This document shows positions 970 to 58,023 of a DNA stretch of 64,000 nt, piece after piece. The DNA comes from Actinomycetota bacterium (GTDB lineage Bacteria > Actinomycetota > Acidimicrobiia > Acidimicrobiales > Ilumatobacteraceae): the NCBI GenBank assembly GCA_009702045.1, contig WLIV01000003.1, positions 131,591-195,590 on the forward strand, read 5' to 3'. A program made the position numbers and the translations under genes. Each line of letters starts with the position of its first letter. Position 1 is the stretch's first letter. Below the pieces are notes generated by a model. It was not told where the DNA came from. It did not search any database and was given only the letters and a program-made list of their open reading frames with translations.

Positions 970-2148
970 TCAGGCTGCTGGTATGTAGGCGCAGGCTGGA
1001 TCTTCGGCCAGCGGATCGCCAGTCGACGCGTAGGCCCGCGACCGCGAACCGCCACACAACTCGCTGTAGTCGCACGTCCCGCACTTGCCACCGAACTCCG
1101 CCGCCCGGATCTGCTGCAGCAGTGGGTGGTCGCGATAGACGTCGACGATGTCGTGGGTGCGTACGTTGCCGAGCACGATCGGCAAGAAGCCCGCTGGCGT
1201 GATGTCGCCCGTGGCCGAGACGAACACGATGCCACGGCCGTCGCGGGTGCCCTTCGTGTGTGCCTTCGATTCTGTCGTCGGCGGGCCGAGCTGTTGCACC
1301 AGATCAGCGGCGAGCCGTCCGTACAGCGCTCCGGTCGGGCCGGTGCGTCCGTCTTCGCGCCACCGCACGACGCGTCGGAACATCGGCCCCTCAACGGTGC
1401 GCACGATGAAGCCGTAGCGCGACGCGTCGTAGAGGAACTGGCAGACATCCTCGTTCTCGTCCGGGCCGAGTTCGAGCATCGAGCTCCCCCGGCCGACATT
1501 GACGAGGAAGAACACCTCCCAGATCGCTGCGCCGTGGTCGTGCACGATGCGCGCGATCTCCGGCAGTTCGTGGACGTTGTCGGAGGTGACCACGGTGTTC
1601 ACCTGAACGACGAAGCCGTGGGCGCGCATTCGGTCGAGTGCGGAGATGGTGGCGGGGAAGTGACCGTTGATGCCGCGCAGACCTTCGTGCGTGGCTGGCG
1701 ATGCGCCGTCGAGGCTGAGCGAGGCCACCTTCACACCGGCGGTGCGCAACTGCTCGAGCCGCTCGTCGGTCAGCAGCGGCGTCACGCTGGGGGCGAGTGC
1801 CACGTGCACACCTACGTCTCGCGAGTGCTCAACGAGCTGGTCGAGATCGGCGCGCATCAGCACATCGCCACCGGTGATGATCAGGATTGGCGACGGCTTG
1901 CCGAACGCAGACAGCGAGTCGATGAAGCGCAACGACTCGGCCGTCGACAGTTCCCCAGGTACCGGGGTGGCCTGCGCCTCTGCACGGCAGTGGCGACAGG
2001 CGAGTCCACACGCTCGCGTGGATTCCCAGAAGACCAGAATCGGTCGACGGTCTAGGTCGACACCGCCGGTGGCGGCAGTGTGCGAGTGCATCGGGTGGTT
2101 CACAACAGCTCGGACGGTACCGGTGCTCTCCGCCACCCGGTAGGGCAC
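970..2148 (-). CDS. Radical SAM/SPASM protein, TIGR04053-like
   Basis: 392 residues. The radical SAM cluster motif is Cys47-x3-Cys51-x2-Cys54 (ACGLACRHCRAEA), so the protein should reductively cleave S-adenosylmethionine with a [4Fe-4S] cluster. A C-terminal SPASM-like region carries further cysteines (GKCGTCDYSELCGG, then a last Cys near residue 387) for auxiliary clusters. The overall pattern, including LVFWESTRACG-type entry and ITGGDVLMR, matches the TIGR04053 family seen near haem or peptide-modification genes, but no small precursor peptide is evident beside it here. The GTG at 2148 is chosen because AGGAAGG stands about 8 bases upstream; an internal ATG at 2091 is the alternative. Confidence 0.87.
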   Translation of the reverse strand: MPYRVAESTGTVRAVVNHPMHSHTAATGGVDLDRRPILVFWESTRACGLACRHCRAEAQATPVPGELSTAESLRFIDSLSAFGKPSPILIITGGDVLMRADLDQLVEHSRDVGVHVALAPSVTPLLTDERLEQLRTAGVKVASLSLDGASPATHEGLRGINGHFPATISALDRMRAHGFVVQVNTVVTSDNVHELPEIARIVHDHGAAIWEVFFLVNVGRGSSMLELGPDENEDVCQFLYDASRYGFIVRTVEGPMFRRVVRWREDGRTGPTGALYGRLAADLVQQLGPPTTESKAHTKGTRDGRGIVFVSATGDITPAGFLPIVLGNVRTHDIVDVYRDHPLLQQIRAAEFGGKCGTCDYSELCGGSRSRAYASTGDPLAEDPACAYIPAA

Positions 2149-4070: not shown

Positions 4071-4535
4071 CTACTGCAGCGGGATCCCGCTGGTATCGCC
4101 TTCGGCGCGCGGGCCGAACAGACGCCGGTCGCCGACAGCGATGGCGAGGTCGTTGATCGACGCTTCCCGGCGGCGCATGTAGCCGAGGTCGTCGAACTCC
4201 CAATTCTCGTTGCCATACGACCGCCACCACTGCCCGGCGTCGTCGTGCCACTCGTACTGGAAGCGAACTGCAATCCGATTGCCCTGGTAGGCCCACAGGT
4301 CTTTGCGCAGTACGTACTCGTGCTCGCGCTGCCACTTGCCCTGGAGGAACGCGATGATCTCGTCGCGTCCTTTCACGAACTCGCCGCGGTTACGCCACTC
4401 GGAGTCCACTGTGTACGCGCCAGCGACACGCTCGGGATCCTTGGTGTTCCACGCGTTCTCCGCCATCAACACCTTCTGGCGGGCGGCCGCTTCGTCGAAC
4501 GGGGGCAATGGGGCGCGGGGCGGGATCTCGGTCAC
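4071..4535 (-). CDS. DUF1348, NTF2-like family protein
   Basis: 154 residues matching the DUF1348 branch of the NTF2/SnoaL-like fold across the whole length: [58 protein letters not shown] and [16 protein letters not shown]. These are small alpha+beta cone proteins with a central cavity, some binding ligands and some enzymatic; function is not assigned for this branch. It is monocistronic, flanked by a convergent transporter and by the end of the YHYH/oxidase operon 23 bases upstream. Confidence 0.85.
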
Positions 4536-4558: not shown

Positions 4559-5296
4559 TCACCCGGCGGTGACCGTTGCTCGCCACAGGATCGTGTTGTC
4601 GATCTTGAGATCACCCGACCAGATCAGTGCGGCAGCGGGCGACCAGGTGATCGTGTCGTATCCCTCCTTCGGACCCACCTCGGCGGCCGTGTACTGGATG
4701 GCCGCGGTCCAGGCGCTGTCGTCGAACGTCGGCGACGTCCAGTCGGCGGGCTCGGGGGTGATCTCGTGCTGGCAGTCGGTGCTCGGGTTGGCGGACGACA
4801 GGCAGTCGGTGTTCAGCGGGGCGCGATGCACGACCAGGCCGCGCCACCCAGTGGTGGTGGTGGCGACCACCTTGCCGGTTGACGTGTCGGTGATCTGGGC
4901 GATGAACCCGCCGTCGCCCATCTGCTGGCGGGCGGTGCCGATGTACTCGAGGCCGCTGTCGTCCTGCTTGAAGTCCTTCGTCACCATTGCGATCGTCAGC
5001 GGGTAGGTGGCGGTGAACGTGATGGTCTCCGCGTTGAATGACCGCTCGGTGGTGATCGGCACGCTGTCCTCACCGACCAGTTCGCCATTGACGTACAGCG
5101 AGAACCAGTTGTCGGCCCACACCTCGGCGGTGAACGTGACGGGTGCCGGTGCCGGTGCCGGTGCCGGTGCGGTGGAGGTGGTGGCTGGGGCTGCGGTCGT
5201 CGGCACGGATGCAGCCGCGGTCGACACAGCACTCGACCCGTCGTCAGAACAGGCAACGAGTAGCAAGAGGGGCAAGAAGGGTAGGACGCGCTTCAT
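4559..5296 (-). CDS. Unknown lipoprotein, last gene of the YHYH/multicopper oxidase operon
   Basis: 245 residues. The N-terminus FLPLLLLVACSDD is a lipoprotein signal with Cys16 as the lipidated residue, followed by a Thr/Ala-rich spacer and an Ala-Pro repeat. The mature domain (about 60-245) contains WADNWFSLYVNGELVG, reminiscent of jelly-roll modules appended to extracellular proteins, and several Trp-rich strands; I do not recognise a named family. The ATG overlaps the stop of the YHYH gene upstream (ATGA), so it is co-translated with it. Expected on the outer face of the cell membrane. Confidence 0.8.
   Translation of the reverse strand: MKRVLPFLPLLLLVACSDDGSSAVSTAAASVPTTAAPATTSTAPAPAPAPAPVTFTAEVWADNWFSLYVNGELVGEDSVPITTERSFNAETITFTATYPLTIAMVTKDFKQDDSGLEYIGTARQQMGDGGFIAQITDTSTGKVVATTTTGWRGLVVHRAPLNTDCLSSANPSTDCQHEITPEPADWTSPTFDDSAWTAAIQYTAAEVGPKEGYDTITWSPAAALIWSGDLKIDNTILWRATVTAG
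5142..5170. repeat. GGTGCC hexanucleotide tandem repeat (about 4.8 copies)
   Basis: In-frame repeat coding the Ala-Pro linker of the lipoprotein. A six-base unit cannot shift frame, so slippage would only change linker length. Confidence 0.8.
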
Positions 5297-6312
5297 CGGG
5301 TGTAGGTCTCCTTGGTAACGGTGCCATCGGGGGCGGTGAACGTGAAAGCGACGGACGAGCCCTGCACGGTGTAGTCGACTGCGCCAAGCGTGCCGCCCAG
5401 CGAGTACTCCAGTCGATACGAGTCGGTGGAAGGCGAGGAGAAGCCGGTGATCACAGCGCCCTTCAACGGACTGCCGGCCTCGCGGAACGCGCGGGTGATC
5501 GGTTGTGGTTCCACCTGGTCGGTGGCGTTGGCGACGCCGACGAGGCCACCGTTGATGTAGGGGTACGTCGTGGTGCCGTGGTAGTGGTACGTGCCATCAG
5601 CGCCGACGTGGCCGTTGTACTCGTCGAGCGTCGCGACTGGTGAGCCGTCGGGCTCTGTCGAGCCGTAGATCGGGTAGCCGTCGAGCGCGTACGCGATCGG
5701 CTTCCCCGCGCCGACGATCTCCTCTAGGTACAGCGGCGCCACGTGGTAGTGGTAGTCGTCGGCCCGGCCTGAGTGGCCACCCCACTCGTCGAGTTCACCG
5801 GCGAGGAAAGCATCGTCGCCGCGGTTGTTGAGCGCGTTGAAGATCGGCACACCGTCGACAGCGATCGCGATGGCACCGCGGAACAGGCCGGTGCGCGCGG
5901 AGATCGGCGTGTTGGCCATCGCCGGGGTGGTGGGGAACCGCCATGCGTTCGCCCCGGTGTACGGCTGGGGCAGCGGCACCTGCTGCTGCCAACTGACGAT
6001 GCCCACCATTGCGTTGTGCGTGGGCATGCCGTTGCTTTCCACCAGCCAGTAGTCGCCCTCGACGAACGCACGCACGGTGTCGGCGAACGCATCGAACCCG
6101 GGCAGCGTGGTGAGCGACGCGATCGTGTCCGCTGAACCAGCGCCAGTCGTGGTTGACGCGACAGAACCGGTTGACCTACATGCGGCCAACAGGATCGCGC
6201 CCAGCCCGAGGCCACCCGCGCGCAGCATGGCGCGTCGGTCGAGCATCGGCCCAGGAGCGTGAGGGTGCACATGGTCGTGCGGATGCGTGTGCGGGTGCAC
6301 GTGGTCCGTCAT
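5293..6312 (-). CDS. YHYH-domain Tat lipoprotein with alternating-His leader
   Basis: 339 residues. The mature part is a YHYH protein (PF14240 type): DDYHYHVAPLYLEE, AYALDGYPIYGS and GTYHYHGTTTYPYING give the paired Tyr-His-Tyr-His signatures. The N-terminus is odd: eight His at every second position (residues 4-18), then RR at 26-27 and LGLGAILLAAC with Cys45, that is a twin-arginine-type lipoprotein signal behind a metal-binding-like leader. The ATG at 6312 overlaps the stop of the upstream PEBP gene (ATGA), which supports this start over Met23. The His/Tyr-rich folds suggest metal binding, but the biochemical role of YHYH proteins is not established. Confidence 0.88.
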   Translation of the reverse strand: MTDHVHPHTHPHDHVHPHAPGPMLDRRAMLRAGGLGLGAILLAACRSTGSVASTTTGAGSADTIASLTTLPGFDAFADTVRAFVEGDYWLVESNGMPTHNAMVGIVSWQQQVPLPQPYTGANAWRFPTTPAMANTPISARTGLFRGAIAIAVDGVPIFNALNNRGDDAFLAGELDEWGGHSGRADDYHYHVAPLYLEEIVGAGKPIAYALDGYPIYGSTEPDGSPVATLDEYNGHVGADGTYHYHGTTTYPYINGGLVGVANATDQVEPQPITRAFREAGSPLKGAVITGFSSPSTDSYRLEYSLGGTLGAVDYTVQGSSVAFTFTAPDGTVTKETYTR

Positions 6313-6884
6313 CAGGTCAATCCCGTCCGGTCGTAGGTGACATCGAGGGTTGCGCTGCTCAGTACCAGGCCGTTCAGCGCGTCCAGCAGCACGGCACGGG
6401 TGACGGTCGACGGGTCGCCCAACGTCGGCTGCGCGGAGAGGGCGTAGACGGTGAACGTGTAGACCTTGGTGCCGGGGCCCTTCGAGCACGGTGGTGCGTA
6501 CTCGGTGCGCCCATTGACGCTGTTCGTCCCGACCGTCGCCGAGGGCACGGCACCAGCATCGAGGTGTTCGATGGTTGCATCCATCCCGTACACGACCCAG
6601 TACCAGTGTGTGTCACCCGGGCCGGGCACGTGGTGCATCACGACCGCATACCCGACCGTGCCCGCGGGTGCGCCACTCCACGCGAGCGGCGGTGTGCTCG
6701 ACGACCCGTCGCAGGTGAACTCGATCGGCAACGTGCCGTCCTGTTGCATCACCGGGCTGGTCAGCAGAAACGCCGACGGTGCGGTGGTCGGCGACGCGGT
6801 GATCGGCGACGCGGAGGAGGGTCCCGCCGACGAGCACCCGGCCACCAACGCCACTGCGAGCCCGCACCACCACCGGCGAATCAC
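6312..6884 (-). CDS. YbhB/YbcL-type PEBP lipoprotein
   Basis: 190 residues. Lipoprotein signal LAVALVAGCSS with Cys17, then a phosphatidylethanolamine-binding-protein (Raf-kinase-inhibitor-like) domain: IEFTCDGSSSTPPLAWSGAP, HHVPGPGDTHWYWVVYGMD and GPGTKVYTFTVYAL. The conserved ligand pocket residues (Asp in FTCDG, His in THW) are present. Bacterial YbhB/YbcL proteins have no firm function. It overlaps by four bases the oxidase gene upstream and the YHYH gene downstream, so its product is probably made in fixed ratio with them and acts at the outer membrane face. Confidence 0.88.
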   Translation of the reverse strand: MIRRWWCGLAVALVAGCSSAGPSSASPITASPTTAPSAFLLTSPVMQQDGTLPIEFTCDGSSSTPPLAWSGAPAGTVGYAVVMHHVPGPGDTHWYWVVYGMDATIEHLDAGAVPSATVGTNSVNGRTEYAPPCSKGPGTKVYTFTVYALSAQPTLGDPSTVTRAVLLDALNGLVLSSATLDVTYDRTGLT

Positions 6885-8473
6885 TTCGGCACCACCAGGA
6901 ACTGGCCCATCAGCCCCTCGTCTTCGTGGTTGGCCATGTGGCAGTGATACATGAACGGGTGATCGTTGCTGGCGTAGTCCTCGAACTTGGCGATGAACGT
7001 GACCTGCTCGTTGATCTGGACGTAGCAGGTGTCCTTCCAGCCCTTCTCGTACCCGGGCACTGGCCCGGTGCTGCGCTCGACGATCGCGAACTGCACATCG
7101 TGGATGTGGAACGAATGGCCGAAGATCTGACCGTTCTGGATGTTCCAGGCCTCGACGGTGTCGAGCACGACCCGCTCGTTGATCGTGTTCATGTCGAAGC
7201 CGCTGTTGTTGAACGTGAACGGACTGCCAGGCCCGTTGTCGGTGATCTCAATGGTCCGCTCGTTCGTTGCGTCAGCTGCCGACCACAACGCGTTGCTCGT
7301 CAGCTTCGTGGGCAGCGATGTGACGCCGTCGGCTCTCGAGGCGATGACGTTGATCCGCAGGATGTCGAACGTGGTGTTGTTCAGCAGGCTGCCGAACGCA
7401 CCGGTGGTGGCGGATTCTGAGCCCGGGTAGCCGAGGCTGTAGCCGCCGTTAAAGGACTGCATGGTGAGGTCCGAGCCGACGGCATCGGCGCCGAGGTCGA
7501 CGATGATCTCGTAACGCTCGCCGGGCACCATCGTCAGTCGAGACACCTCGACCGGGGCATCGACCAACCCACCGTCGGTGGCGATCACCCAGAACTTCCG
7601 GTCGTCGGCGAACCCGAGGGTGTACGCACGCTCGATCTCGCCGTTGAGGATGCGGAACCGCACCAGCTGCGCCGGCAGGTTCACTTCGGCCGACATCGTG
7701 CCGTTGGTCAACATGTAGTCGCCGTAGATGCCGGTCGTCTCGATCGCGTTGTCCGTGCCGAACTTGCGGCTGGTAAGAATCAGCGGGATGTCGTCCACGC
7801 CATACGTGCGCGGTAGTGCGAGTGCCGATTCGATGTCGTCCTGCACGATGATGAACCCGCCGGCGCCGAGATTCAGCTGCTTCCAGGTCAGTTCGTGGGC
7901 GTGCGGGTGATACCAGTACGTGGAGGCGTTGTTCATCACTTCGAATGTCGCCGACCACGCACAGCCGGGGTCGATGACCTGCATCGGCCCACCGTCCATC
8001 TCTGCCGGCAGGTGCACACCGTGCCAGTGGGTGGTGGTCTCCTCGTCGAGCGAGTTGGTGACGGTGATGCCCACCGTGTCGCCCTTGGTCATGATCAGCG
8101 TTGGCCCCCAGAACGAGGCGCCGTTGTAGCCGATGGTGTCGGTGGGCGCGCCGTCGAAGAACTGCACGGTGGACGGCGCGAGAGCCAGGTCGAACTTCGT
8201 GCCCGTCAACGTCGGCGGGATCCACAACAAGTTGAACCCCTGGGTGCTCACTGAAGCGTCGACGGCCACCTCCTGCAGCACGGCGGCGCTGGTGTCGGTG
8301 GTGATCGAGTAGCAGGCGTTCGAGTCGGTGGTGTGCGTGCTGACGTCGGTGGCGCCCGAGTTCGTCGTCGACTTGGACGACGAAGTGCAGGCCGCGAGTG
8401 CGAGCGCGGCGCCTCCGAACAGGAATTGGCGGCGACCCAGGGTGGGCCGGGTGAGGGGTGTCGTGTCGTGCAT
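6881..8473 (-). CDS. Multicopper oxidase, Tat-exported lipoprotein
   Basis: 530 residues. The signal RRQFLFGGAALALAAC (RR 14-15, Cys29) predicts folded export by Tat and lipid anchoring. Four copper-site segments are complete: HWHGVHLPAEMDGGP, WYHPHAHELTWKQ, HSFHIHDVQFAIVE and YHCHMANHEDEGLM, the last giving the type-1 Cys, flanking His and axial Met. The three-cupredoxin layout resembles CueO, SufI or bilirubin-oxidase-like enzymes, oxidising a metal ion or phenol with O2 reduction. No Met-rich insert of the CueO kind is obvious. It lies between a YHYH gene (3-base gap) and the PEBP gene (4-base overlap). Confidence 0.93.
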   Translation of the reverse strand: MHDTTPLTRPTLGRRQFLFGGAALALAACTSSSKSTTNSGATDVSTHTTDSNACYSITTDTSAAVLQEVAVDASVSTQGFNLLWIPPTLTGTKFDLALAPSTVQFFDGAPTDTIGYNGASFWGPTLIMTKGDTVGITVTNSLDEETTTHWHGVHLPAEMDGGPMQVIDPGCAWSATFEVMNNASTYWYHPHAHELTWKQLNLGAGGFIIVQDDIESALALPRTYGVDDIPLILTSRKFGTDNAIETTGIYGDYMLTNGTMSAEVNLPAQLVRFRILNGEIERAYTLGFADDRKFWVIATDGGLVDAPVEVSRLTMVPGERYEIIVDLGADAVGSDLTMQSFNGGYSLGYPGSESATTGAFGSLLNNTTFDILRINVIASRADGVTSLPTKLTSNALWSAADATNERTIEITDNGPGSPFTFNNSGFDMNTINERVVLDTVEAWNIQNGQIFGHSFHIHDVQFAIVERSTGPVPGYEKGWKDTCYVQINEQVTFIAKFEDYASNDHPFMYHCHMANHEDEGLMGQFLVVPK

Positions 8474-8476
8474 GGC

Positions 8477-9472
8477 TCAGGCCACCTTCGTGCCGTGGAA
8501 GCAACCGATGAAATAGGGGAACTCGTAGGTCGCCGAGTAGTGGTACGTGGTGACCACCTCACCGTCCAGCAGGATCGGCGACGTCCGCCCGTGGCACTCG
8601 TCGAGGTCGGCATTGGTCGGTAGGTCGCCATTGGCGGAGCGCTCGGCCACGATCGGGTAGCCGTCGTATGCGAAGCCCACAACTGTGGAGGCACCGGTAC
8701 TCGCGTCACGAACGCAGGACGGGATGTCGTGGTAGTGGTAGACGCCCGTCTGCTGCGGGTGACCGTCGCACTGATCCTGTGTCTCGTAGGCCACCGCATC
8801 GCGGTTCCGTTCATCCACCGGGGCGAACAGCGCCACGCCATTGCGCAGCACACCGATCGCACCCTTGCTGAGACATGTTGGGGTCGCACCGGCGGTCGGG
8901 GTCACCGGCAGCGACACCGACAATGCACTCTCGCCGATCGTGTTCGGGTTGCGGTCGTAGTTGAATGCCGGGTCGTCGGCGGCCACGGGGAAGGTGCCGG
9001 TCACATTGCCGACTGGCAGGCCATTCGAGGCGATCACCCGCAGGTCGCCCTCGACAGTCTCGCTGTACTGGGCCATCGGCCAGTCGAGCGCGCCTTGTAC
9101 CGACACCTTCTGGGTGAGGTCCCACGTGCCCGCAACTTCGTCCAGCCACGGGCCCGCCTTGAACGCTCCGCCCCCGTTCGGGTTGCCGCTGTCACACACG
9201 TAGAGGTTCCCGACTGCTGCGCCGGTGGTGCTGACATGCGGTGTGCCGATCGGCAGCGTGGTCAGGTCGGCGGCAGGCCCGACCCACGTGTTGACGATCG
9301 TGCCGTCCGCGGCGGTGGTCGTCGACGAACTGTCGGTGGCGAGTGTGGAGGTATCCGGTGACGTGTCTGCGGTCGTCGATGCGACGGTGGTGGACGACGC
9401 ATCAGGAGTGCTGCCGCAGGCCGTGAGGGCGAAAGCGGCGACGGCCAGGACGAGGGGTACGGGGGATCGCAT
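8477..9472 (-). CDS. YHYH-domain lipoprotein, first gene of the oxidase operon
   Basis: 331 residues from the ATG at 9472. The signal LVLAVAAFALTACGS gives Cys19; a long Ser/Thr/Asp-rich spacer follows, then a YHYH domain with TGVYHYHDIPSC, VVGFAYDGYPIVAE and VTTYHYSATYEFPYFIGC. It shares only the domain core with the other YHYH protein of the operon (5293-6312) and has a conventional Sec lipoprotein signal rather than Tat. Being promoter-proximal, it is separated by 84 bases from the divergent response regulator, a layout typical of a target operon and its own regulator. Confidence 0.87.
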   Translation of the reverse strand: MRSPVPLVLAVAAFALTACGSTPDASSTTVASTTADTSPDTSTLATDSSSTTTAADGTIVNTWVGPAADLTTLPIGTPHVSTTGAAVGNLYVCDSGNPNGGGAFKAGPWLDEVAGTWDLTQKVSVQGALDWPMAQYSETVEGDLRVIASNGLPVGNVTGTFPVAADDPAFNYDRNPNTIGESALSVSLPVTPTAGATPTCLSKGAIGVLRNGVALFAPVDERNRDAVAYETQDQCDGHPQQTGVYHYHDIPSCVRDASTGASTVVGFAYDGYPIVAERSANGDLPTNADLDECHGRTSPILLDGEVVTTYHYSATYEFPYFIGCFHGTKVA

Positions 9473-9493
9473 GGCGGCACCGTACGCAACGCA

Positions 9494-9537
9494 CCTCACG
9501 GTTGGCTGAGGACGCGTCCTCAGGATTCCCTCAGGAA
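9494..9537. promoter_or_regulatory. Divergent operator: 18-bp palindrome plus CCTCAGGA direct repeats
   Basis: CTGAGGACGCGTCCTCAG at 9506-9523 is a perfect 18-bp palindrome. CCTCAGGA occurs at 9518-9525 and again at 9529-9536, exactly 11 bp (one helical turn) apart, and a related CCTCACGG is at 9494. Tandem half-sites one turn apart are the usual binding pattern of OmpR/PhoB-type regulators, and such a regulator begins at 9557. The overlap with both promoters suggests joint control and autoregulation; binding is inferred. Confidence 0.6.
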
Positions 9538-9544
9538 GCACGCC

Positions 9545-9550
9545 TAGTCT
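9545..9550 (+). promoter_or_regulatory. -10 box (TAGTCT) for the two-component operon
   Basis: TAGTCT ends 6 bases before the ATG at 9557, suggesting a leaderless transcript. The direct repeats lie just upstream of or over the expected -35 region. Confidence 0.45.
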
Positions 9551-9556
9551 CGTGGC

Positions 9557-10279
9557 ATGTCGGAGGTCAACGAGCGCCCCCATGTGCGGTTGGTGGTGGT
9601 GGAGGACGACGAGTCCATCCGCGAACTGCTCGCCGCCGGGCTGCGTTTCGCCGGCTACGACGTGCGCACGGTGGCCGACGGTGGCGCCGCACTCGACCTG
9701 CTCGCTGCGCAGGATGCCGACCTCGTGGTGCTCGATGTCAACCTGCCCGTGATCGACGGCTTCGAGGTGTGCCGCCGCCTGCGCGCCGCCGGCGACGATG
9801 TGCCGGTCATCTTCCTCACGGCCCGTCGCGAAACTGGCGACCTACGCGCTGGCTTCGGGGGCGGCGGTGACGATTACCTGACCAAACCGTTCAGCCTGGA
9901 CGAGTTGACGTTTCGCATCGAGGCCGTCCTCCGACGCGCCGGTGCCCGTGGTGCCCGTGGCGCGGTGGCGTCCCGCCTGGTCTGCGGGCGCGTCGAACTC
10001 GACGAGGCGACGCATCAGGTGTGGAGTGCGGGCGACGAGGTGCAACTCACCCCCACCGAGTTCCGCCTGTTGCGCACACTGCTCGTCAATGTCGATCATG
10101 TGCTGACGCGCATGCAGATTCTCGACCTCGTGTGGGACTATGACTTCGAAGGCGACTGGCAGATCATCGAGACGTACGTCAGCAGCTTGCGGAAGAAGAT
10201 CGAGATCGGGGATGCCGCCCGCATCGTCCACACCGTTCGCGGCATCGGTTACGTCGCTCGTCGTCCGGGCCTGGCATGA
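9557..10279 (+). CDS. OmpR/PhoB-family response regulator
   Basis: 240 residues. Receiver domain about 10-122 with acidic pocket Asp17/Asp18, phosphoacceptor Asp60 (VVLDVNLPVIDG), Thr in FLTARR and Lys in YLTKPF; winged-helix output domain about 140-236 (LTPTEFRLLRTLL, TYVSSLRKKIE, VRGIGYVARRP). The stop overlaps the histidine kinase start (ATGA). Divergent placement from the YHYH/multicopper oxidase operon suggests that operon as its target, perhaps in response to copper or another extracytoplasmic cue. Confidence 0.95.
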   Translation: MSEVNERPHVRLVVVEDDESIRELLAAGLRFAGYDVRTVADGGAALDLLAAQDADLVVLDVNLPVIDGFEVCRRLRAAGDDVPVIFLTARRETGDLRAGFGGGGDDYLTKPFSLDELTFRIEAVLRRAGARGARGAVASRLVCGRVELDEATHQVWSAGDEVQLTPTEFRLLRTLLVNVDHVLTRMQILDLVWDYDFEGDWQIIETYVSSLRKKIEIGDAARIVHTVRGIGYVARRPGLA

Positions 10280-11667
10280 GTCTGCGGCTGCGGCTCACCC
10301 TCGGTATCGCGCTCGTACTGGCCGTGTCCCTCGGCCTGCTGGGCTACGGCGTGGTCCAGTCAACGCGCGCTGACGCGCTGGCCATCGTCCGCCGGCAGGT
10401 CGAGCGTTCGCTCTCCGTGCGCGCCAACTCGCCGCCTCCGCCGGTCGGCACCGACAGACCGGATTCCGACACTCGTGGGCGGGCGACGGCGCACTTCGTG
10501 ATCGCTGCGGACGGCACGATCCGCGTGACGGAGCCGGCCGGGCCGCCCAGCGACCCGACCCCAGTGCCCCACCTCTCCGCCGCTGACATTGCAAGGCTGC
10601 AATCAGGTGACGCGGTGACGGTCGACGCGGTCGACGGCAGCCTGCGCTATCTCGTGCTCGCCGAACGTACGAGCACTGGCGACTACGAGGTGCAGGCCGG
10701 CCCGCTTGTCGACATCGACGCGACGATCGACTCGTTGGTGCGGCGCTTGTTGGCCGGCGCGCTGATCACACTCGTGCTTGCCGCAGCCGCCGTGATCGCA
10801 GTGTTGCGCCACGGCCTCAAACCACTGCGCAAGGTCATCGCCACTGCCGATGCAGTTGCTGCTGGCGAACGCGAACTGCGCATCCCCACCGACGAGGGCC
10901 CTACCGAGATCCGTCACTTGGCGGCAGCTCTGGACCACATGCTGCAGAACCAGAGAACTGCGTTGCAGTCGAAGGAGGAGAGCGAGCAGCGATTGCGCCA
11001 CTTCATCTCGGACGCATCGCACGAACTGCAGACCCCGATCACGTCGGTCCTCGGGTGGGTGGAACTGCACCGCAAGGGTGCCCTCGACGCGGCGGGCAGC
11101 GTCGCCGCGATGGAGCGCATCGAGGCCGAGAGCCGACGCATGTCGGCCTTGGTGGACGAGTTGTTGCTGCTGGCGCGCCTCGATGAGCAGCGGCCGTTGC
11201 AGCTCGCTCCCACCGATCTCAGCGCCATTGCTGCCGATGCAGTCACGGACGCCAGTGCGGTCGAACCAACTCGCCCGATCACCCTCGAGGTGTCCGGGGC
11301 CGTAATGGTCATGGGGGATGCCGCACGTCTCCGACAGGTCATCGACAACCTGTTGCGCAACGTGCGGGTGCACACCCCGACAGGCGCAGCGGCCACCGTG
11401 CGGGTGTCGATCGAGGGATCGACTGCCGTGGTGACCGTATGCGATTCCGGGCCGGGTATCGACTCAGAGTCGTTGCCCCACGTCTTCGACCGCTTCTGGC
11501 GCCGTGATTACTCACGGACGCGTGCGACGGGTGGTGCCGGACTCGGCCTCGCGATCGTGGCTGCGCTTGTCGCCGCGCACGGCGGATCGGTCTCGGCCGC
11601 CAACCTGTCCAGCGGTGGGGCAGCGTTCACCTGTGCGCTGCCGCTTGCGGAGCCCATCGCTCCCTGA
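10276..11667 (+). CDS. Membrane sensor histidine kinase partner of the OmpR-type regulator
   Basis: 463 residues. Helix 1 spans about 5-25 and helix 2 about 155-178, enclosing an extracytoplasmic sensor of roughly 130 residues with no His/Cys/Met-rich metal site that I can see. HAMP follows, then the H-box SDASHELQTP with His249, N-box DNLLRNVRVHTP, G1 VCDSGPGI, F-box FDRFWRR and G2 GGAGLGLAIV, all intact. It autophosphorylates on His249 and passes phosphate to the regulator encoded in the overlapping upstream gene. Confidence 0.94.
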   Translation: MSLRLRLTLGIALVLAVSLGLLGYGVVQSTRADALAIVRRQVERSLSVRANSPPPPVGTDRPDSDTRGRATAHFVIAADGTIRVTEPAGPPSDPTPVPHLSAADIARLQSGDAVTVDAVDGSLRYLVLAERTSTGDYEVQAGPLVDIDATIDSLVRRLLAGALITLVLAAAAVIAVLRHGLKPLRKVIATADAVAAGERELRIPTDEGPTEIRHLAAALDHMLQNQRTALQSKEESEQRLRHFISDASHELQTPITSVLGWVELHRKGALDAAGSVAAMERIEAESRRMSALVDELLLLARLDEQRPLQLAPTDLSAIAADAVTDASAVEPTRPITLEVSGAVMVMGDAARLRQVIDNLLRNVRVHTPTGAAATVRVSIEGSTAVVTVCDSGPGIDSESLPHVFDRFWRRDYSRTRATGGAGLGLAIVAALVAAHGGSVSAANLSSGGAAFTCALPLAEPIAP

Positions 11668-11741: not shown

Positions 11742-13172
11742 ATGAACCCGACCGGTACGTGCCATGAGTGCGGTGCACCATTCCTTCCCGGCGCACCCTC
11801 GTGCACACAGTGCGGCGCTGCACTGGCTTCGATGGCGCCGCCAACCCCGCCAGCTCCGCTGCCGCCAGGCGCGCCGCCGCCACCACCGCCGGGGGCTATG
11901 CCGATGATGTCCGTCGGGCAGGTCGGGGTGCAGCGGAACAACTCGTCGCTGATCGCTGGCGCGCTGCTCGCAGTCATCGCCCTGGTCGGGATCGGCGTGA
12001 TCCTGCTCAACCGAGGCAGCGACAGCACCAACAAGGGCACCACCTCGGTCACGACGAACGCGACCGGTGATGGCACCGACCCGTCGACCCTGGGCCAGGG
12101 TGAGGTACTGCTTGAGCCGGTGAACGTGCCCACCGCGAACCCGTTCACCGACGATCAGCGCACCACCGTCGAGACACAGCCGACGGTGTCGCTGCCCGAC
12201 CTCCCGATCCCGTCCACGTCGTCGACGCTGGCGGCCGGCCAAGTGCCGCTGCCGCAGGTGTCGGGCGCGCAGCCCGGTCTGTACGGCGGAACGCGCAACA
12301 ACCAGGTGTGCGACAAGCAGCAGATGATCGTCTTCCTCGAGACGCACGCCGACAAGGCGGCGGCGTGGGCTGGTGTGCAGGGGATCGCCGTCGGCGACAT
12401 TCGCACCTACATCACCGCGCTGACGCCGGTGATCCTGACGTACGACACGCGGGTGACGAACCACGGGTTCAAGAACGGCGTGGCCTACGCGCACCCATCG
12501 GTGCTGCAGGCGGGTACGGCAGTGTTGGTCGACGAGTACGGCATCCCGCGAGCGAAGTGCTCGTGCGGTAACCCGCTGTCGCCGCCCATCCCGCTGACGG
12601 TGCCGCCGATCTACGTCGGACCTCAGTGGCCGACGTTCACGCCGACGACAGTGATCGTGGTCATCCAAACCGTGGTGGTCGTGGAGGGTTTCACGATCGT
12701 CGACGTCACCACGGGCGATCTGATCGTACGCCCGGTGGGCGCCAACCCCGACACTCCCGACCTGGCCACCGGTGACATCCGCGTCACCCTCAGCTGGGGC
12801 GATTCGGCTGACCTTGACCTGCAGGTCACCGACCCCGAGGGCGCCGCTGTCAACTATGACTTCCCCACCAGCGCGAGTGGTGGCCAACTCGATGTCGACG
12901 CGAATTCAGGGTGCAATGAAGCGCTCAGCGAGCCGGCTGAGAACATCATCTGGCCGGAGACCGGACCAAACGGTCAATACATCGTTCAGGTCGCTCTCTA
13001 CAGCGAGTGCAGCTCGCCAGTTGCTCACCCGTTCCTGCTGCAGGTGTTCGTGGGCGGACAGCCTGTCGCAGTGCAGGTGGGCGGCGACGATGGTGTCTTC
13101 GCCGCGTCGGACGGCTCCGGCACGCTGTCGTCGAGCGTGCCGGCGATGTACTTCTCCTTCACTCGTGGCTAA
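11742..13172 (+). CDS. Zinc-ribbon / DUF6777 membrane-anchored protein with YfaP-like C-terminus
   Basis: 476 residues from the ATG at 11742, which has GGAGGG 5 bases upstream. Order: zinc ribbon CHECG...CTQCG (residues 6-24), Pro-rich linker, one membrane helix about 68-88, Ser/Thr-rich spacer, a DUF6777 domain about 180-300 (GLYGGTRNNQVCDKQQ, VQGIAVGDIRTYI, KCSCGNPLSPPI) and a C-terminal YfaP-like domain (LSWGDSADLDLQVTDPEG). Topology would leave the zinc ribbon in the cytoplasm and the rest outside. DUF6777 occurs in actinobacterial surface proteins, some fused to kinases; function unknown. Confidence 0.85.
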   Translation: MNPTGTCHECGAPFLPGAPSCTQCGAALASMAPPTPPAPLPPGAPPPPPPGAMPMMSVGQVGVQRNNSSLIAGALLAVIALVGIGVILLNRGSDSTNKGTTSVTTNATGDGTDPSTLGQGEVLLEPVNVPTANPFTDDQRTTVETQPTVSLPDLPIPSTSSTLAAGQVPLPQVSGAQPGLYGGTRNNQVCDKQQMIVFLETHADKAAAWAGVQGIAVGDIRTYITALTPVILTYDTRVTNHGFKNGVAYAHPSVLQAGTAVLVDEYGIPRAKCSCGNPLSPPIPLTVPPIYVGPQWPTFTPTTVIVVIQTVVVVEGFTIVDVTTGDLIVRPVGANPDTPDLATGDIRVTLSWGDSADLDLQVTDPEGAAVNYDFPTSASGGQLDVDANSGCNEALSEPAENIIWPETGPNGQYIVQVALYSECSSPVAHPFLLQVFVGGQPVAVQVGGDDGVFAASDGSGTLSSSVPAMYFSFTRG

Positions 13173-16936: not shown

Positions 16937-18121
16937 TCAGGGGAGCGGGATGCTGGCGAGGAGGCGGGGGTTGAGGCGGACCGCATTGGCGGACAGGCCG
17001 CTGCCGGCAGCGTGATGGCGCACCCATTCGAGTGCGGCGTCGGACTCCAGCACCGACAGCACCCGCTCGGGTTGCCCGGTGGTGCAGGTGATCACCGGGA
17101 CGGAGGGCAGCCACTCGCCGCGCACATCGTGTACGGCCTCGATCACCTTCGTCTGGTTGGCGATGAGGATCTTGGGCACGAGTCGTTCGCCCGCCCAGCG
17201 TTGCAGCGCAGGGGACAACCGGTCGAGCGCCACACGCGGCGCGGCGTACTGCTGCTTGGCGAAGCGCACCGGCCGTTCGCCCCAGCGGCACACGCCCGGG
17301 TCGATCAGCCCGCTGGTGACGAGGGGCGGGCCGTCCATGTCGTCGCCGACGGCACCGACCAACCCGTAGTACTGGTCGCGGAAGTCGACGGTGAAGCGGG
17401 CGATGTCGCCCAGCACCGGGCCGTCGTGCGCAGCCATGGAAGTACCGGCGAGTAGTCCGCTCCACGAGGCGGGCATGTCCATCGGCGCCACCACGTCGAA
17501 CGACGGTCCGAACGCTCGCCGCACCGGCCCCGGCGCGCCACCGACCTCCCACACGCCAGCCCACACGCGCACGTTGGCGTCGAACATCAACGTCGGCGAC
17601 CACCACATCCAGCGCAGCGCGGCAGCACCGTCGACTGTCGCACGGATGGCCGCTGCGTCGCGGGCCGACAACAACGACTGGGGGAGGACCAGCCCGACGC
17701 GGCCGCCCGGTCGGGCGAGGCGCACCGCAAGCGCGAGAAACTCGGCGGCGGCGTCGGCGTACGGTCCGCCACCGAACTGCGAGCGACCACCGCGTGTCGT
17801 GACCCGCGAAAGTTGGTTGAGGAACGGGGGGTTGCCGATGACGACGTCGAACTGCTGCCCGCCCCAGTCGCGGCTCAGCGAGTCGTCGTGCACGAAGCCA
17901 CCGCCGGCCGCCGTGGCCGCATCGATGTCGACGCCCGTCTGCTCCGGTAGCGCCGTAGCGCGCAGGAATCGGCCGTCCCCGCAGGCCGGGTCGAGCACCG
18001 TGCGCGCCCCCGCGAACAGGGTCTCGCGCACCACCGCTTCCACCAACGATGCAGGGGTGTACCACGCTCCGAGTTGCTTGCGCGTGGCCGGCCCCGCGGT
18101 GCCACGTTGGGGATCGCTCAC
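16937..18121 (-). CDS. Solitary N6-type DNA methyltransferase
   Basis: 394 residues from the GTG at 18121. [15 protein letters not shown] is the YTP motif that opens N6-adenine methylases of the HsdM/Eco57I class; [13 protein letters not shown] is SAM-binding motif I and [13 protein letters not shown] is catalytic motif IV (NPPF). The C-terminal about 150 residues ([37 protein letters not shown]) look like a target-recognition region. No restriction endonuclease, specificity subunit or phage-defence gene adjoins it, so it appears to be an orphan methylase. It diverges from coaA with 24 bases between the starts. Confidence 0.85.
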
Positions 18122-18131
18122 GCGGTCAGCG

Positions 18132-18137
18132 TAGGGT
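18132..18137 (+). promoter_or_regulatory. -10 box (TAGGGT) for coaA, probably leaderless
   Basis: TAGGGT ends 8 bases before the GTG at 18146; no ribosome-binding site precedes it. It lies within the 24-base gap to the divergent methyltransferase start, so the two promoters overlap. Confidence 0.5.
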
Positions 18138-18145
18138 TTCACCTC

Positions 18146-19099
18146 GTGACGTCCTCGGACTCCAGTGGAGCCGCCGCCCGCTATCTCTCCTTCGAGCGCG
18201 ACCAGTGGGCCGCGCTCCGTGCCGCAACGCCGCTGACGCTCAGCGCGGACGACCTCGAGTCGCTGCGCGGCATCAACGAACGCATCGACCTCGAGGAGGT
18301 AGCGGCGATCTACTTGCCGCTCACCCGGCTGCTCAACCTGTACGTCGCGGCCACCCAGAACCTGCACAAGGCATCGGCCGCGTTCCTCGGCACGCTTGCC
18401 CCGAAGGTGCCGTACGTGATCGGCGTGGCCGGCAGCGTCGCCGTCGGCAAGAGCACCTTTGCTCGTGTGCTGCAGACACTTCTTGCCCGTTGGCCGGATC
18501 ACCCGAAGGTCGATCTCGTCACCACCGACGGCTTCCTGCACCCCAACCGGGTGTTGGAAGAGCGTGGCATCATGAACCGCAAGGGCTTCCCGGAGAGCTA
18601 CGACACTCGCCGCCTGCTGCAGTTCCTGCGCGACCTGAAGAGCGGCGCAGAAGAGGCGACGGCTCCGGTGTACAGCCATGTGGTGTACGACATCGTCGAG
18701 GGCGAGCAGGTGATGGTGCGCCGGCCCGACATCGTCATCGTCGAGGGTCTCAACATGTTGCAGGTCGGCTCACCCGACGGCAGCGCGGTCAATGAGTTCG
18801 TCAGCGACTACTTCGACTTCTCGATCTACATCGATGCGGATGTGAATGACATCGAGGAGTTCTACGTGCGTCGCTTCCTGACGCTGTACGAGACGGTGTT
18901 CCAAGACTCTGAGAGTTTCTTCCGGCACTACGCACACCTCACTCGCACGGAGGCTGAGCAGGAAGCCCGACGTATCTGGCGCGAGATCAACGGCAAGAAC
19001 CTGCGCGAGAACATCGAGCCCACCAAGGCGCGTGCCAGCCTGATGCTGAACAAGGGCCGCGACCATCGCGTGACGTGCGTCAAGCTGAGGCGCCTGTGA
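18146..19099 (+). CDS. coaA: Type I pantothenate kinase
   Basis: 317 residues. Phosphorylates pantothenate, the first step of coenzyme A synthesis. The Walker A loop is GSVAVGKS (residues 96-103); [23 protein letters not shown] and EGLNMLQ are CoaA hallmarks. Length is normal for the family. The GTG at 18146 fits the start of the conserved region and a -10 box just upstream. It overlaps the following lipoprotein gene (GTGA). Confidence 0.95.
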
Positions 19100-39101: not shown

Positions 39102-40256
39102 TCAGGCGGCCTTGCAGTCGCCGCTGCAGTGCACGTCGGCGATCGGCTGCGCGGTGATCAGGTCGGTGACCCAGTCGACGAACAGCGTGCCGTTGACGGT
39201 CTCGGTGTAGAACGTGTTCGAGTGCAGCACCGTGTGTGTTTCGCCGGGAGCGATGTAGCTGTAGAGCTGGATACCGCTGGCCTCGATCTGCTGCTCGTTG
39301 GTGTCGATCAACTGCACCAGATTTTCGGCAGCCACGCCGGCCAGCGCCGCGAACGCAGTCTGCGTGTGGTCGAAGGCGTAATCGTGGCGAGCGAACGTGA
39401 TCGTCGGATCGTGCTTGCCGGCTTGTACGAACAGACCCGGCAGGCTCCATTGCTCGGGGGTGAGGCCGACAGTCGTCGGCCACTTGGGCACGGCGTTCAT
39501 CGTGCCCCACTGGGCGCCGATGGTGGAGTTCATCACCGGCACATCGGGGTAGGCGCCGGAACCATCGGCCAGCACGGTGAGCTTGGCGGTGGGCATCAGG
39601 TCGTGAGCCAGACCTGCGTACAGCGGCGTCGGGACCGAGCCGGCGCTCTCGCCGGCGACCACGATCTGGGTGGCGTCGGGGAACAACTCGGCCATCTTCG
39701 CCAATGCGGTGGTGCCGTTGATGTAGCCGTTGTGGTGCACGACGACGCCATCGCCGTAGTCGGTGGTGGCGTTGCCGATGTGCACATCGCCCGTGCAGTA
39801 CGGCACGAACACCATCGAGTAGTTGGCGAACGGGTTCTTCGGGTTGGTGAAGTCGAAGATGCCCTCACCGTCGGTCATCCCACCGTCGTGACCGACGGTG
39901 CGCTTGAAGGTGTCGCTGCCCGGAGCGCAGGTGTCCTTGCTGAAGCACGCGCCGCCGCCTTCGAGGAAGAACAGCACCTTGTTCGGATCGGCCTTGCGGA
40001 CGAAGTACGTGAACCCGCTGCCGTCGCTGCACATGCAGTCGGCAGGTGCGGTGATGGACTCCCACTTGCTGGCGCCCGTCGTGGGTGCGTCGGTGCTCGG
40101 TGCGTCGGACGCGGGTGCTGCGTCAGCGCTGATCACCGTGGTGTCACTCAACGCGGGCGTCGAGGAGGTAGTCGTGTCGTTGCTGCATGCGGCGAGCACG
40201 CCGCACACAACGCCGAATGCCATCAGGGTCCGCAACCTCTTGTTCACACGCGTCAT
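39102..40256 (-). CDS. Pectinacetylesterase-family lipoprotein
   Basis: 384 residues. Signal LMAFGVVCGVLAACSND gives Cys24, then a Ser/Thr/Asp-rich spacer. The catalytic alpha/beta-hydrolase part has FFLEGGGACFSKDTC, the nucleophile elbow VVAGESAGSVPTPL and an ETHTVLHSNTFY segment with the His; this matches the PAE/Notum family. It should deacylate an extracellular carbohydrate or lipid-modified substrate at the cell surface. TACGCT 7 bases before the ATG on the minus strand marks a probable leaderless promoter. Confidence 0.88.
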   Translation of the reverse strand: MTRVNKRLRTLMAFGVVCGVLAACSNDTTTSSTPALSDTTVISADAAPASDAPSTDAPTTGASKWESITAPADCMCSDGSGFTYFVRKADPNKVLFFLEGGGACFSKDTCAPGSDTFKRTVGHDGGMTDGEGIFDFTNPKNPFANYSMVFVPYCTGDVHIGNATTDYGDGVVVHHNGYINGTTALAKMAELFPDATQIVVAGESAGSVPTPLYAGLAHDLMPTAKLTVLADGSGAYPDVPVMNSTIGAQWGTMNAVPKWPTTVGLTPEQWSLPGLFVQAGKHDPTITFARHDYAFDHTQTAFAALAGVAAENLVQLIDTNEQQIEASGIQLYSYIAPGETHTVLHSNTFYTETVNGTLFVDWVTDLITAQPIADVHCSGDCKAA

Positions 40257-57900: not shown

Positions 57901-58023
57901 TACGAGTACATCGCTCGCGCCACCACGCTGGGCACGTTCGTGGTGCCGCCCACCCGCGCCGAGGAGATGTACGCCCCGGAGACCTTCGGCCGCTCCGGCA
58001 CCGACAAGGTCGTGGTCGGCTGA
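51985..58023 (+). CDS. Giant alpha-2-macroglobulin-family lipoprotein lacking the thioester
   Basis: 2012 residues. Signal LLVAVGLFAAACDDG gives lipidated Cys23. N-terminal Ig/MG-like repeats (LSITFDQPMVPVTTVGQLDA) lead to MG domains (WYVFDDRQVYQPGETMRVKG), the VVVVDEAVLALSGYQLTDPL segment, the A2M core (SNFDALALFQPTVSTGADG) and a helical TED-like domain (DGGFPWWRKGD), then a receptor-type C-terminus. Where A2Ms have YGCxEQ this protein reads YPYESSDGR (Glu1525), so no thioester can form. Bacterial A2Ms are periplasmic or surface protease traps; this one must act by another mechanism. No pbpC gene adjoins it. Confidence 0.92.
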   Translation: MRRVRVRRYTALLVAVGLFAAACDDGHSPQTSSTVTANDTWSAGAPRLFGLHLSEGTAQTGATATTPVVTGDDLSAQRLREILALLPEFLTGATLQQQFNWPTQTTPPPRAGRTLEIVFPPGETTPPDTVPTGALHVLRHQPDGAVPIAPYLSITFDQPMVPVTTVGQLDAAAVPVRLTPAVPGHWQWIGTRTLRFDATSDTVDRLPMATTFIVEVPKGTKSATGGVLAQAVTFTFTTPPPTVVSLSPQAESLPLDQVFIAAFDQRVDPAAVLATVHLQANGKDVPVRVATAAEIAADDTARMISESTEAGRWVAFRATEKLSTDAALTIVIGPGTPSAEGPATTATAATFHARTYAPLRIQETNCSSGDQCPPGSQIYVQFNNVLDVLHSDVAKVVVSPALAGMQVSLQGGTMVIGGSTLGRTTYEISVPASFTDLYGQTLGSDTKVKVSIGSAAPSIQQFQPITTLDPFATAQQLSVLTVNHDTLRVRVFAADPAKFAEYARYASARDAQGVQLPGWAVLSDATLSVKNTKDAAVVTDIDLSGVLHGAAGQVIVLVEPVPNVAPNSNDYWQNRPALTWVQSTTFGVDVLADATSAYVWATDLRTGTPVQGVSVRYAAGAAVTTDAQGQATLSLPTTVPDDGYGVVVATVGDKTAIMQVNAVRQTLRDQARWYVFDDRQVYQPGETMRVKGWVRRLTVSGAADLVSLRAGDTIDYIVTDAYGNQILKGTTKVRGLGGFDLSLAIPATADLGQAFLQLSLHGEAALDSADYSHQFQIQQYRRPEFEVTTRAESEGPYVSTTPATLAATGTYYAGGPLASSSVDWLVTTTAATYAPPGWTDFTFGIWAPWWNVPDMREMATSGMVSDSMPCCGPTGESQVAQYHGTTDASGTHYLQLGFEGADGALPDLPVSVSAQATVTDVNRQAWSDTTAMLVHAADRYVGLRSTRTFVRQGDPLTVEAVVTGIDGGVQSGVAFDIVAGKVESKYVNGTWTEVVVDPQTCHVTSSSAPSSCNFDTAVGGQYKVTAVVAGSAGGHNRSELTTWVSGAESQPTRGVEQGVLTVVPDKATYAAGDTAELLVQAPFAMGEGLLTVVRNGVRSTQRFTVVSGSAVVRVPVSEADVPQLTLGVEVVGATTRTADDGTALPDAPQRPAYAVGSLVLSVPPVSRTLTVTAVPRQTELAPGGSTAIDVKVTDAKGAPVQGAEFAVVVVDEAVLALSGYQLTDPLGLFYGATWDSLTTAFARSQIALVDPASLERSNGNDGGSLNSEVSPSPDDQYTSTTTGAASPDASGGDSSGGGKGSTTKPVAVRSNFDALALFQPTVSTGADGTASVDVTLPDSLTRYRVMVVAVSGADRFGSAESNITARLSLAVRPSAPRFANYGDSFELPVVLQNQTNAAMSVDVVLETANLAPGAPKGTTVTVPANGRVEVRFPVTTVQAGTAAFRVTAVSGEISDSATVELPVYTPATSEAFATYGTVDSGAVDQPLVAPTGVIPQFGGLQVSTSSTSLQALTDAVLYIVQYPYESSDGRATRIMSIAALRKVLTAFDTQGMPTAAAIDAAVKADIAGLVAMQNDDGGFPWWRKGDTSEPFDSVQVAHALTVAKAEGYLVPRDLYDRVMNHIANIESYIPSTYGQHERDTISAYALWVRSLAGAGDTAKAEQLYRNRKADLSVDALAWLWTAVGSGAMKTEIARTISNRAVETAAAANFTTGYDDGSYLVMQSDRRTDGIVLDALIANDPRSDLIPKVVTGLLADKVRGRWDNVQENSFILLALKRYYDVFETQTPSFVARVWLGARFAGEHTFEGRQTDRVNLSIPMSDVVASGNSSLIVSKSGAGRLYYRIGLTYAPSDLTLSPLDRGFTVTRTYEAVDDPKDVTQDANGTWRIKAGARVRVRLSMVAESQRTHVALIDPLPAGLESLNPALAVTQSVPSNSPVSTEDMYWWWGQWYQHEQLRSDRTEAFTTLLAAGVYSYEYIARATTLGTFVVPPTRAEEMYAPETFGRSGTDKVVVG

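Follow-up and report, generated by a model that had tools for sequence, protein, structure and literature searches.

A conserved YHYH2-PEBP-lipoprotein module within a five-gene lipoprotein operon of an Ilumatobacteraceae bacterium

A lipoprotein operon and its nearest described relatives

We know of no firm role for bacterial PEBP proteins, and the YHYH family (PF14240) is represented in the accessible open-licence literature by phage papers and a diatom survey, with its function predicted only. In PMC7824862 the YHYH domain of phages is predicted to be a hydrolase with a zinc site of three histidines and one aspartate, and its fusion to tail or concanavalin-like lectin domains is described as frequent. 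Members of both families are encoded side by side in the 64,000-nucleotide stretch of DNA studied here (the window), which comes from an Actinomycetota bacterium of the family Ilumatobacteraceae (contig WLIV01000003.1). Five minus-strand genes, encoding the YHYH protein YHYH1, a multicopper oxidase (MCO), a PEBP-fold protein, a second YHYH protein (YHYH2) and a further lipoprotein (the fifth lipoprotein), form an operon that diverges from the genes for an OmpR-type regulator and its kinase (Table 1). We find that YHYH2, PEBP and the fifth lipoprotein are a conserved module, spread far more widely than the rest of the operon. This module, with its gene fusions, its histidine-rich segments and a clean PEBP control, is our main result. 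Our tentative reading, to which we give slightly less than an even chance, is that a YHYH protein loaded with metal forms the centre of a surface complex that binds glycans, and that this lineage has joined a copper oxidase to it.

A first-pass annotation of the window had proposed the gene order, strands and coordinates of the operon and the divergent pair, and all of these hold when the sequence is read again. Pfam confirms the families it had named, returning YHYH twice, three Cu-oxidase domains, PBP (that is, PEBP), a receiver with a winged helix, and HAMP, HisKA and HATPase domains. Every operon product had been assigned a lipoprotein signal, and by eye we find a signal and a lipobox cysteine at the N-terminus of all five, with a twin arginine in the signals of the MCO and YHYH2. 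The genes were described as joined by 4-base overlaps or a 3-base gap, which fits three junctions, namely the gap between YHYH1 and the MCO (8474-8476) and the overlaps of the MCO with PEBP (6881-6884) and of YHYH2 with the fifth lipoprotein (5293-5296), but the PEBP/YHYH2 junction is a 1-base overlap at 6312. The divergent starts of YHYH1 and the regulator are 84 bases apart (9473-9556), exactly the distance annotated. Across the source genome PF14240 matches YHYH1 and YHYH2 only, and Cu-oxidase_3 has three matches.

Conservation of the YHYH2-PEBP-lipoprotein module

Within the bacterial family of the window, YHYH2 orthologues that are 58-66% identical lie in an operon PEBP-YHYH2-lipoprotein (loci L067 and L158-L170), with the three core genes together in 8 of 14 loci and YHYH2 next to the fifth lipoprotein in 12. 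All 12 keep the 4-base overlap of YHYH2 and the lipoprotein. The 1-base overlap of PEBP and YHYH2 is kept in 6 of 8 loci; in the remaining two, short gaps separate these genes if the starts are placed as chosen here. To look further afield, we scanned one genome per species with a YHYH2 alignment; at least 588 stretches matched, 547 were confirmed, and the best 80 by similarity were retained, a set that includes near-duplicates and some of the same contigs as the family loci (L194 and L158, for instance) and whose gene calls are crude open reading frame (ORF) picks. Of these best 80 of 547 loci, 48 have PEBP and 42 have the fifth lipoprotein; at least one of the two is present in 65 and both are present in 25. 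PEBP lies no more than 207 bases from YHYH2 in 45 of the 48 loci that bear it. The genes are also found fused: YHYH2 and PEBP share one open frame in 28 of the 80 loci, as do the lipoprotein and PEBP in four (L212, L217, L221, L222). Pfam was run on three fused proteins: those of L226 and L259 match both PBP and YHYH, that of L221 matches PBP, and the lipoprotein has no Pfam model.

To judge by record titles, carriers include members of Actinomycetota, Chloroflexota, Planctomycetota, Verrucomicrobiota, Bacteroidota, Armatimonadota and Acidobacteriota, with the proviso that several titles of metagenome-assembled genomes seem unreliable (contigs with an Acidimicrobiia-type operon are titled Bifidobacterium breve). 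Named carriers, again by record title, include Streptomyces actuosus VRA1, Loktanella salsilacus and Actinobacteria bacterium IMCC26103, so that tests are possible outside the window's organism. Six plasmid records were matched by YHYH2, and three of them have module genes together: two Loktanella plasmids have the order YHYH2-PEBP-lipoprotein-YHYH and a Rhodobacteraceae plasmid has lipoprotein-YHYH2. Two Persicobacter plasmids and one from Antarctobacter have no such arrangement. The lipoprotein of the Loktanella and Rhodobacteraceae plasmids is annotated as a 'PEBP family protein', yet it matches the fifth-lipoprotein profile (L281 and L286, 7487-8134); perhaps the name was taken over from the fusions.

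Among the loci compared, PEBP keeps to YHYH2. Around other YHYH genes the same profiles found PEBP in 0 of 161 control loci (0/29, 0/25, 0/30, 0/30, 0/28 and 0/19 by group) and the fifth lipoprotein in 1 of 161 (L126). Of the control loci, 114 have 1.5-kb flanks only, some genomes recur between the groups, and the groups exclude L066-L077, which were fetched via the lipoprotein. This is a fair test for PEBP because of the short distance at which it is found from YHYH2, and a weaker one for the lipoprotein because in many planctomycete-type loci the latter is more than 500 bases away. YHYH genes are common: the window's class has them in 45 of 296 genomes, the class of L240's genome in 50 of 149 and that of L227's in 66 of 148. 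Since PEBP is absent around the other YHYH genes of the control, we conclude that it goes with the YHYH2 subfamily. Two loci are worth describing for their layout. The contig of L261, titled Armatimonadetes, has between 2453 and 13447 a regulator and kinase on one strand and, on the other, genes for a sulfatase, a phosphatase-like protein, a YHYH2-PEBP fusion, the lipoprotein, a second YHYH protein and a HupE-like protein; L246 (7992-10293) has tandem YHYH genes followed by the lipoprotein gene, with a regulator/kinase pair upstream.

Properties of the three partners

PF14240 scores 84.2 bits on YHYH1 and 42.9 bits on YHYH2 (Pfam cut-off 25). The predicted model of YHYH2 is very confident over residues 73-339, with ten-residue blocks at 90-98 from residue 71. 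In an alignment of window YHYH2 with 62 of the 80 loci (L246 was dropped for a stop in the stretch, others to thin near-duplicates), all 63 rows share H99, H180, H188, H190, H245, D175, D185, D186, D211 and D230. At six of these positions (H180, H188, H190, D175, D211, D230) the same residue also predominates in a set of 42 other YHYH rows from 60 loci, with counts between 28 and 39, and the histidine triad with one aspartate, H180, H188, H190 and D211, is present in YHYH1 too; we infer that these four may be the zinc-site residues predicted in PMC7824862. The metal-dependent hydrolase activity predicted in that paper might, by analogy, extend to the YHYH2 family. Like the phage-tail proteins described there, YHYH2 belongs to PF14240 and keeps the triad and aspartate, and where the phage domain is often fused to a lectin, here a lectin-type protein is encoded alongside. 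Unlike them, it is a lipoprotein subfamily that has a PEBP partner and, within the protein, extra invariant histidines, a beta extension at the C-terminus and a histidine-rich segment by the export signal. We found no relative of YHYH in the Protein Data Bank by sequence or sequence profile, and no Foldseek match to the YHYH2 model at E 0.001 or better. VIA-align gave only a beta-meander common with fatty-acid-binding proteins (Z 7.6, 65 residues); we claim no new fold. A phage origin of YHYH2 was considered and rejected, tblastn against a phage collection giving no match at E 0.001; the single strong hit in BFVD (E 1.9e-7) falls within a long viral protein, in line with the occurrence of YHYH in phages.

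YHYH2 proteins are rich in histidine next to the export signal. Among those with Tat-type signals, H-x-H stands ahead of the twin arginine in 25 of 31. The corresponding count for twin-arginine ORFs of other kinds is 6 of 189, and one of these six is itself a YHYH2 that the filter overlooked. The twin-arginine filter overlooks L192, L211, L216, L217, L221 and L222, and two identical proteins (L067 and L201) are both among the 31. Of 40 Sec-type YHYH2 proteins, 28 have [A/G]H..H straight behind the signal core, as against 2 of 277 other Sec-like ORFs; seven more of the 47 proteins in this set are without a recognisable start, and the pattern was picked after viewing the sequences, so the count is descriptive. 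In window YHYH2 the segment precedes the twin arginine and should therefore stay inside the cell or go with the cleaved signal, and in the Sec-type proteins it would sit at the mature N-terminus. The segment may take part in the metal loading of YHYH2. Support for a metal link comes from these segments and not from the MCO. In L191 the upstream part of the YHYH2 frame (before 8001) encodes an extremely histidine-rich leader, with about 18 histidines ahead of the twin arginine. A YHYH gene in another setting is found on the Antarctobacter plasmid (L285, 1212-7980), where genes for an ATP-binding protein, a response regulator, a di-heme oxidoreductase, the YHYH protein and a patatin lie in a row; the di-heme oxidoreductase is another redox enzyme next to a YHYH gene.

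The fifth lipoprotein, annotated at first as unrecognised and jelly-roll-like, gave no match above cut-off in a Pfam scan but is recognisable as CBM67-like. Its profile touches rhamnosidase B (2okx, E 0.0058), and the best VIA-align match of its AlphaFold2 model (mean pLDDT 88) is the CBM67 domain of 3w5n (residues 167-299; Z 10.8, rmsd 2.7 over 125 residues, model 50-217). A lectin from Pleurotus ostreatus (Z 10.5) and other rhamnosidases (9.7 to 8.1) come next, followed by CBM60 (5.9 and 5.4); Foldseek is weaker, with a best E of 3.9e-3 and 3w5m at 4.6e-3. Asp62-Asn63 is invariant in 40 of 40 rows, which represent 39 of the 42 lipoprotein-bearing loci and the window protein, and is aligned to the Asp-Asn of 3w5m, a pair that we take to be calcium and sugar ligands. 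CBM67 is described as calcium-dependent (PMC4690510), and in a shiitake lectin relative the matching acidic pair, there Asp-Asp, is reported to provide calcium and sugar ligands (PMC11512411). We therefore model the fifth lipoprotein as a CBM67-like, calcium-lectin-type jelly roll, which may bind sugar. It resembles CBM67 in its predicted fold and its Asp-Asn pair, and differs from the CBM67 of rhamnosidases in being a free-standing lipoprotein with no catalytic domain and in having a part past residue 217 that falls outside the match.

The PEBP assignment is secure by Pfam (73 bits, cut-off 24), and a profile match to 3n08 (E 1e-25) gives it the fold of the bacterial proteins YbhB and YbcL. 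Unlike these, PEBP is here a lipoprotein, or elsewhere fused to YHYH2 or to the CBM67-like protein, and its pocket has changed: in an alignment of the window protein with 22 of the 48 PEBP loci, the Asp-Pro-Asp(-x-Pro) and His-Arg pocket motifs of the aligned chains are replaced in the window PEBP. The fusions suggest that PEBP is a structural partner of YHYH2. Such fusions, together with the lectin-type third partner, make the questions of metal, ligand and glycan directly testable.

Oxidase, regulator pair and competing readings

In the glycan-binding complex that we favour, YHYH2 would be a metalloprotein that takes up its metal via the histidine-rich segment by its export signal and that probably acts either as a metal-dependent hydrolase or in binding. 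The PEBP-fold partner would sit on YHYH2, and the CBM67-like calcium-lectin-type protein would hold the complex on glycans. In the lineage of the window, the CueO-like copper oxidase and the second YHYH protein would have joined this module, and the divergent OmpR-type pair may tune expression of the operon. The observations beneath this picture are the order and conservation of the genes, their fusions, the modelled lectin-type fold, the histidine-rich segments and the conserved histidines and aspartates of YHYH2; the physical complex, the sugar binding, the identity of the metal, the catalysis and the regulation are what we infer. Sulfatases and metallophosphatases occur near the module: among 98 of 103 same-strand neighbouring ORFs of about 780-2,400 bases, Sulfatase was matched by 21, Metallophos by 17 and HupE_UreJ_2 by 3. 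One sulfatase type, that of L226 with 11 others 54-70% identical to it, occurs in 12 loci and stands directly before the YHYH2-PEBP fusion in eight of them (L226, L233, L236, L237, L238, L241, L262 and L270). Planctomycetes are rich in sulfatases. In L221 (6433-11403) metallophosphatases lie on either side of YHYH2, followed by the lipoprotein-PEBP fusion; L212 and L222 are alike by similarity only. A bolder version of our reading, which we consider unlikely, would make YHYH2, PEBP and the lectin an undescribed surface enzyme system of many phyla. In it YHYH2 would be a new family of metalloenzymes whose N-terminal histidines, exposed by signal cleavage in the Sec-type members and part of the Tat leader in the actinobacterial ones, load or form a copper-type site; PEBP would be a recruited structural partner, the lectin would aim the system at sulfated or phosphorylated glycans and the MCO of the window would add redox chemistry. 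'Undescribed' refers to the open-licence full-text literature, in which we found no paper joining YHYH with phosphatidylethanolamine-binding.

Several observations weigh against a complex of this kind. Neither PEBP nor the lipoprotein was found in 15 of the 80 YHYH2 loci, some of them on long contigs. A Chlorohelix plasmid carries a PEBP 53% identical to that of the window, and neither YHYH nor the lipoprotein is encoded within 6 kb of it. A search of 296 genomes of the class Acidimicrobiia with the lipoprotein gave 13 strong matches (E 7e-42 or better, source genome included). In the 12 other loci fetched, YHYH adjoins the lipoprotein in four (L066, L067, L074, L075) and PEBP in two (L067, L072); the YHYH type in L066, L074 and L075 differs from YHYH2, and seven loci (L068-L071, L073, L076 and L077, some on short contigs) have the lipoprotein without YHYH, PEBP or MCO. 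The lipoprotein's link to YHYH2 is thus neither constant nor exclusive. The altered pocket motifs mean that a ligand of PEBP cannot be guessed, the Tat-type histidine segment, lying ahead of the signal, would not be on the mature protein, and the sulfatase adjacency counts stand without a base rate.

We retain copper detoxification as a rival and not as the default reading of the operon, since the MCO is not distributed like the module. Under this rival, which we judge unlikely, the CueO-like MCO would oxidise Cu(I), the YHYH and PEBP lipoproteins would bind copper and pass it along and the two-component pair would sense it. The MCO itself fits such a role: annotated at first as complete, Tat-exported and with copper ligands, it has the twin arginine and four copper-ligand motifs that line up with CueO structures. 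It shares Cu-oxidase domains, aligned ligands and Tat export with CueO, and differs from it in being a lipoprotein, in scoring 344.4 bits against the NCBIfam CueO equivalog (cut-off 525) and in its operon context. Aligned with full-length CueO it shows an interruption between residues 329-344 and 420, presumably where the Met-rich part of CueO is placed, and with the shorter chains 2yxv and 8r4h it aligns in one piece. Also in favour of copper handling are the histidine-rich segments of YHYH2, the adjacency of an MCO to YHYH2-PEBP in L259, and the kinase, whose top score is to the CopS/SilS model (200.3 bits, under the cut-off of 292.55). Against it, the regulator scores higher for the RpaB, MtrA and PhoB models than for CopR (168.8 bits, cut-off 279.2), and a scan of 29 of the roughly 55 ORF picks in the window turned up no copper transporter or chaperone. 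The distribution of the MCO also speaks against it. Close orthologues occur in three other genomes of the 200 family genomes searched; one adjoins the lipoprotein gene (L152), the stretches fetched around the other two (L151, 9.1 kb; L153, 10.3 kb) show no module genes, and none of the three genomes has a YHYH match, two being listed with none and the third not being among the 65 listed with one. L259 is the only one of the 80 module loci in which an MCO adjoins YHYH2-PEBP; sulfatase, PhoD-like phosphatase and HupE genes lie there on the same strand. Fourteen module genomes searched whole gave an MCO relative (E 1e-30) in four, and in the stretches fetched only the one of L259 has module genes close by. 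The conserved set thus does not include the MCO. The first-pass annotation had seen in the five proteins one surface assembly for metal or phenol oxidation or copper handling, and had looked to co-occurrence of YHYH, MCO and PEBP beside an OmpR-type pair as a check on it: YHYH2, PEBP and the lipoprotein do recur as operon and as fusions, the MCO does not recur with them, and oxidation therefore cannot be read as the purpose of the module. The idea of one assembly gains strength for three of the five genes, and the oxidation or copper reading loses some.

It is also possible, though we think it rather unlikely, that the operon is partly an accidental mixture, in which YHYH1, together with its regulator pair, and an MCO of unrelated function entered a conserved YHYH2-PEBP-lipoprotein operon, core and additions not working together. 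The separate distribution of core and additions speaks for such a mixture, but all five genes touch, the MCO adjoins the lipoprotein gene in L152 and YHYH2-PEBP in L259, and two YHYH genes with the lipoprotein recur in L066, L074, L220, L246, L261 and the Loktanella plasmids. L176, in which a YHYH1 gene (61% identical) diverges from a regulator (72%) and kinase (62%), does not decide the matter because its contig ends 441 bases past YHYH1. It is the only locus with the pair among 11 with YHYH1 relatives of at least 56% identity (L066, L079, L080, L081, L090, L091, L094, L155, L172, L175 and L176), some of whose contigs end nearby; in L171 the pair that adjoins other YHYH genes is less similar (46% and 30%). 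The regulator pair, OmpR-type by its receiver and winged helix and by a HAMP-HisKA-HATPase kinase, is not core to the module, and two-component genes near module loci (regulators in 11 and kinases in 8 of 80) are not used as support, there being no base rate. Finally, a metal-scavenging role, in which YHYH2 and its histidine segment catch scarce zinc, nickel or copper for a HupE/UreJ-like transporter, could draw on those segments and on HupE_UreJ_2-type genes in 4 of the 80 loci, but seems very unlikely, since HupE is rare, the window operon has no transporter and the lectin-type protein and the sulfatase and phosphatase neighbours would be left unexplained.

The dedicated control that had been proposed for the operon thus finds weak backing in the pair of L176 and in a repeat within the 84-base gap, and counts against it are the rarity of the pair and the lack of the perfect 8-base repeat in L176. 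Nowhere else in the window does a perfect 8-base direct repeat spaced at 11 bases occur, and 30 of 20,000 base shuffles of the gap reached such a repeat; with up to three mismatches two repeat sites are found, which is not unusual, as 10 of 100 shuffles reach two. The window has three 18-base perfect palindromes. An MprA box was considered for the 8+3+8 repeat and rejected, as a likeness to the mycobacterial MprA site was not supported and a paper on Corynebacterium glutamicum MprA gives another motif. Promoter and terminator scans found nothing.

Table 1. Features of the operon, its divergent two-component pair and their surroundings, in window coordinates.
Feature	Coordinates	Strand	Basis
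YHYH1, Sec-type lipoprotein with YHYH domain (PF14240)	8477-9472	minus	Pfam E 1.6e-23; divergent from regulator
MCO, Tat-exported CueO-like lipoprotein multicopper oxidase, copper-ligand motifs kept	6881-8473	minus	Pfam, NCBIfam, CueO alignment
PEBP-fold lipoprotein (PF01161), pocket motifs altered	6312-6884	minus	GTG start; Pfam and profile
YHYH2, Tat lipoprotein, His-rich segment ahead of twin arginine; core of conserved module	5293-6312	minus	Pfam and alignments
Fifth lipoprotein, modelled as CBM67-like jelly roll, invariant Asp62-Asn63	4559-5296	minus	model and alignment
DUF1348/SnoaL-like protein without lipobox, possible sixth operon gene	4071-4535	minus	23-base gap; Pfam
OmpR/PhoB-type response regulator	9557-10279	plus	receiver and winged helix
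Sensor histidine kinase	10276-11667	plus	HAMP, HisKA, HATPase
Candidate regulator site in shared promoter region	9506-9536		18-base palindrome 9506-9523; 8-base direct repeat at 9518 and 9529, 11-base spacing

The DUF1348 gene, lying so close to the end of the operon, may be cotranscribed with the five genes. Directly past the kinase, 11742-13172 (plus strand) encodes a DUF6777 protein with a weak zinc-ribbon match. Elsewhere in the window, 970-2148 (minus) has a CxxxCxxC motif and is by eye a radical SAM protein, 16937-18679 (minus) encodes an N6 DNA methylase of Eco57I-like type, 39102-40256 (minus) a Pectinacetylesterase family protein (PF03283), and 51985-58023 (plus) a bacterial alpha-2-macroglobulin of 2012 residues with a Big_5 domain.

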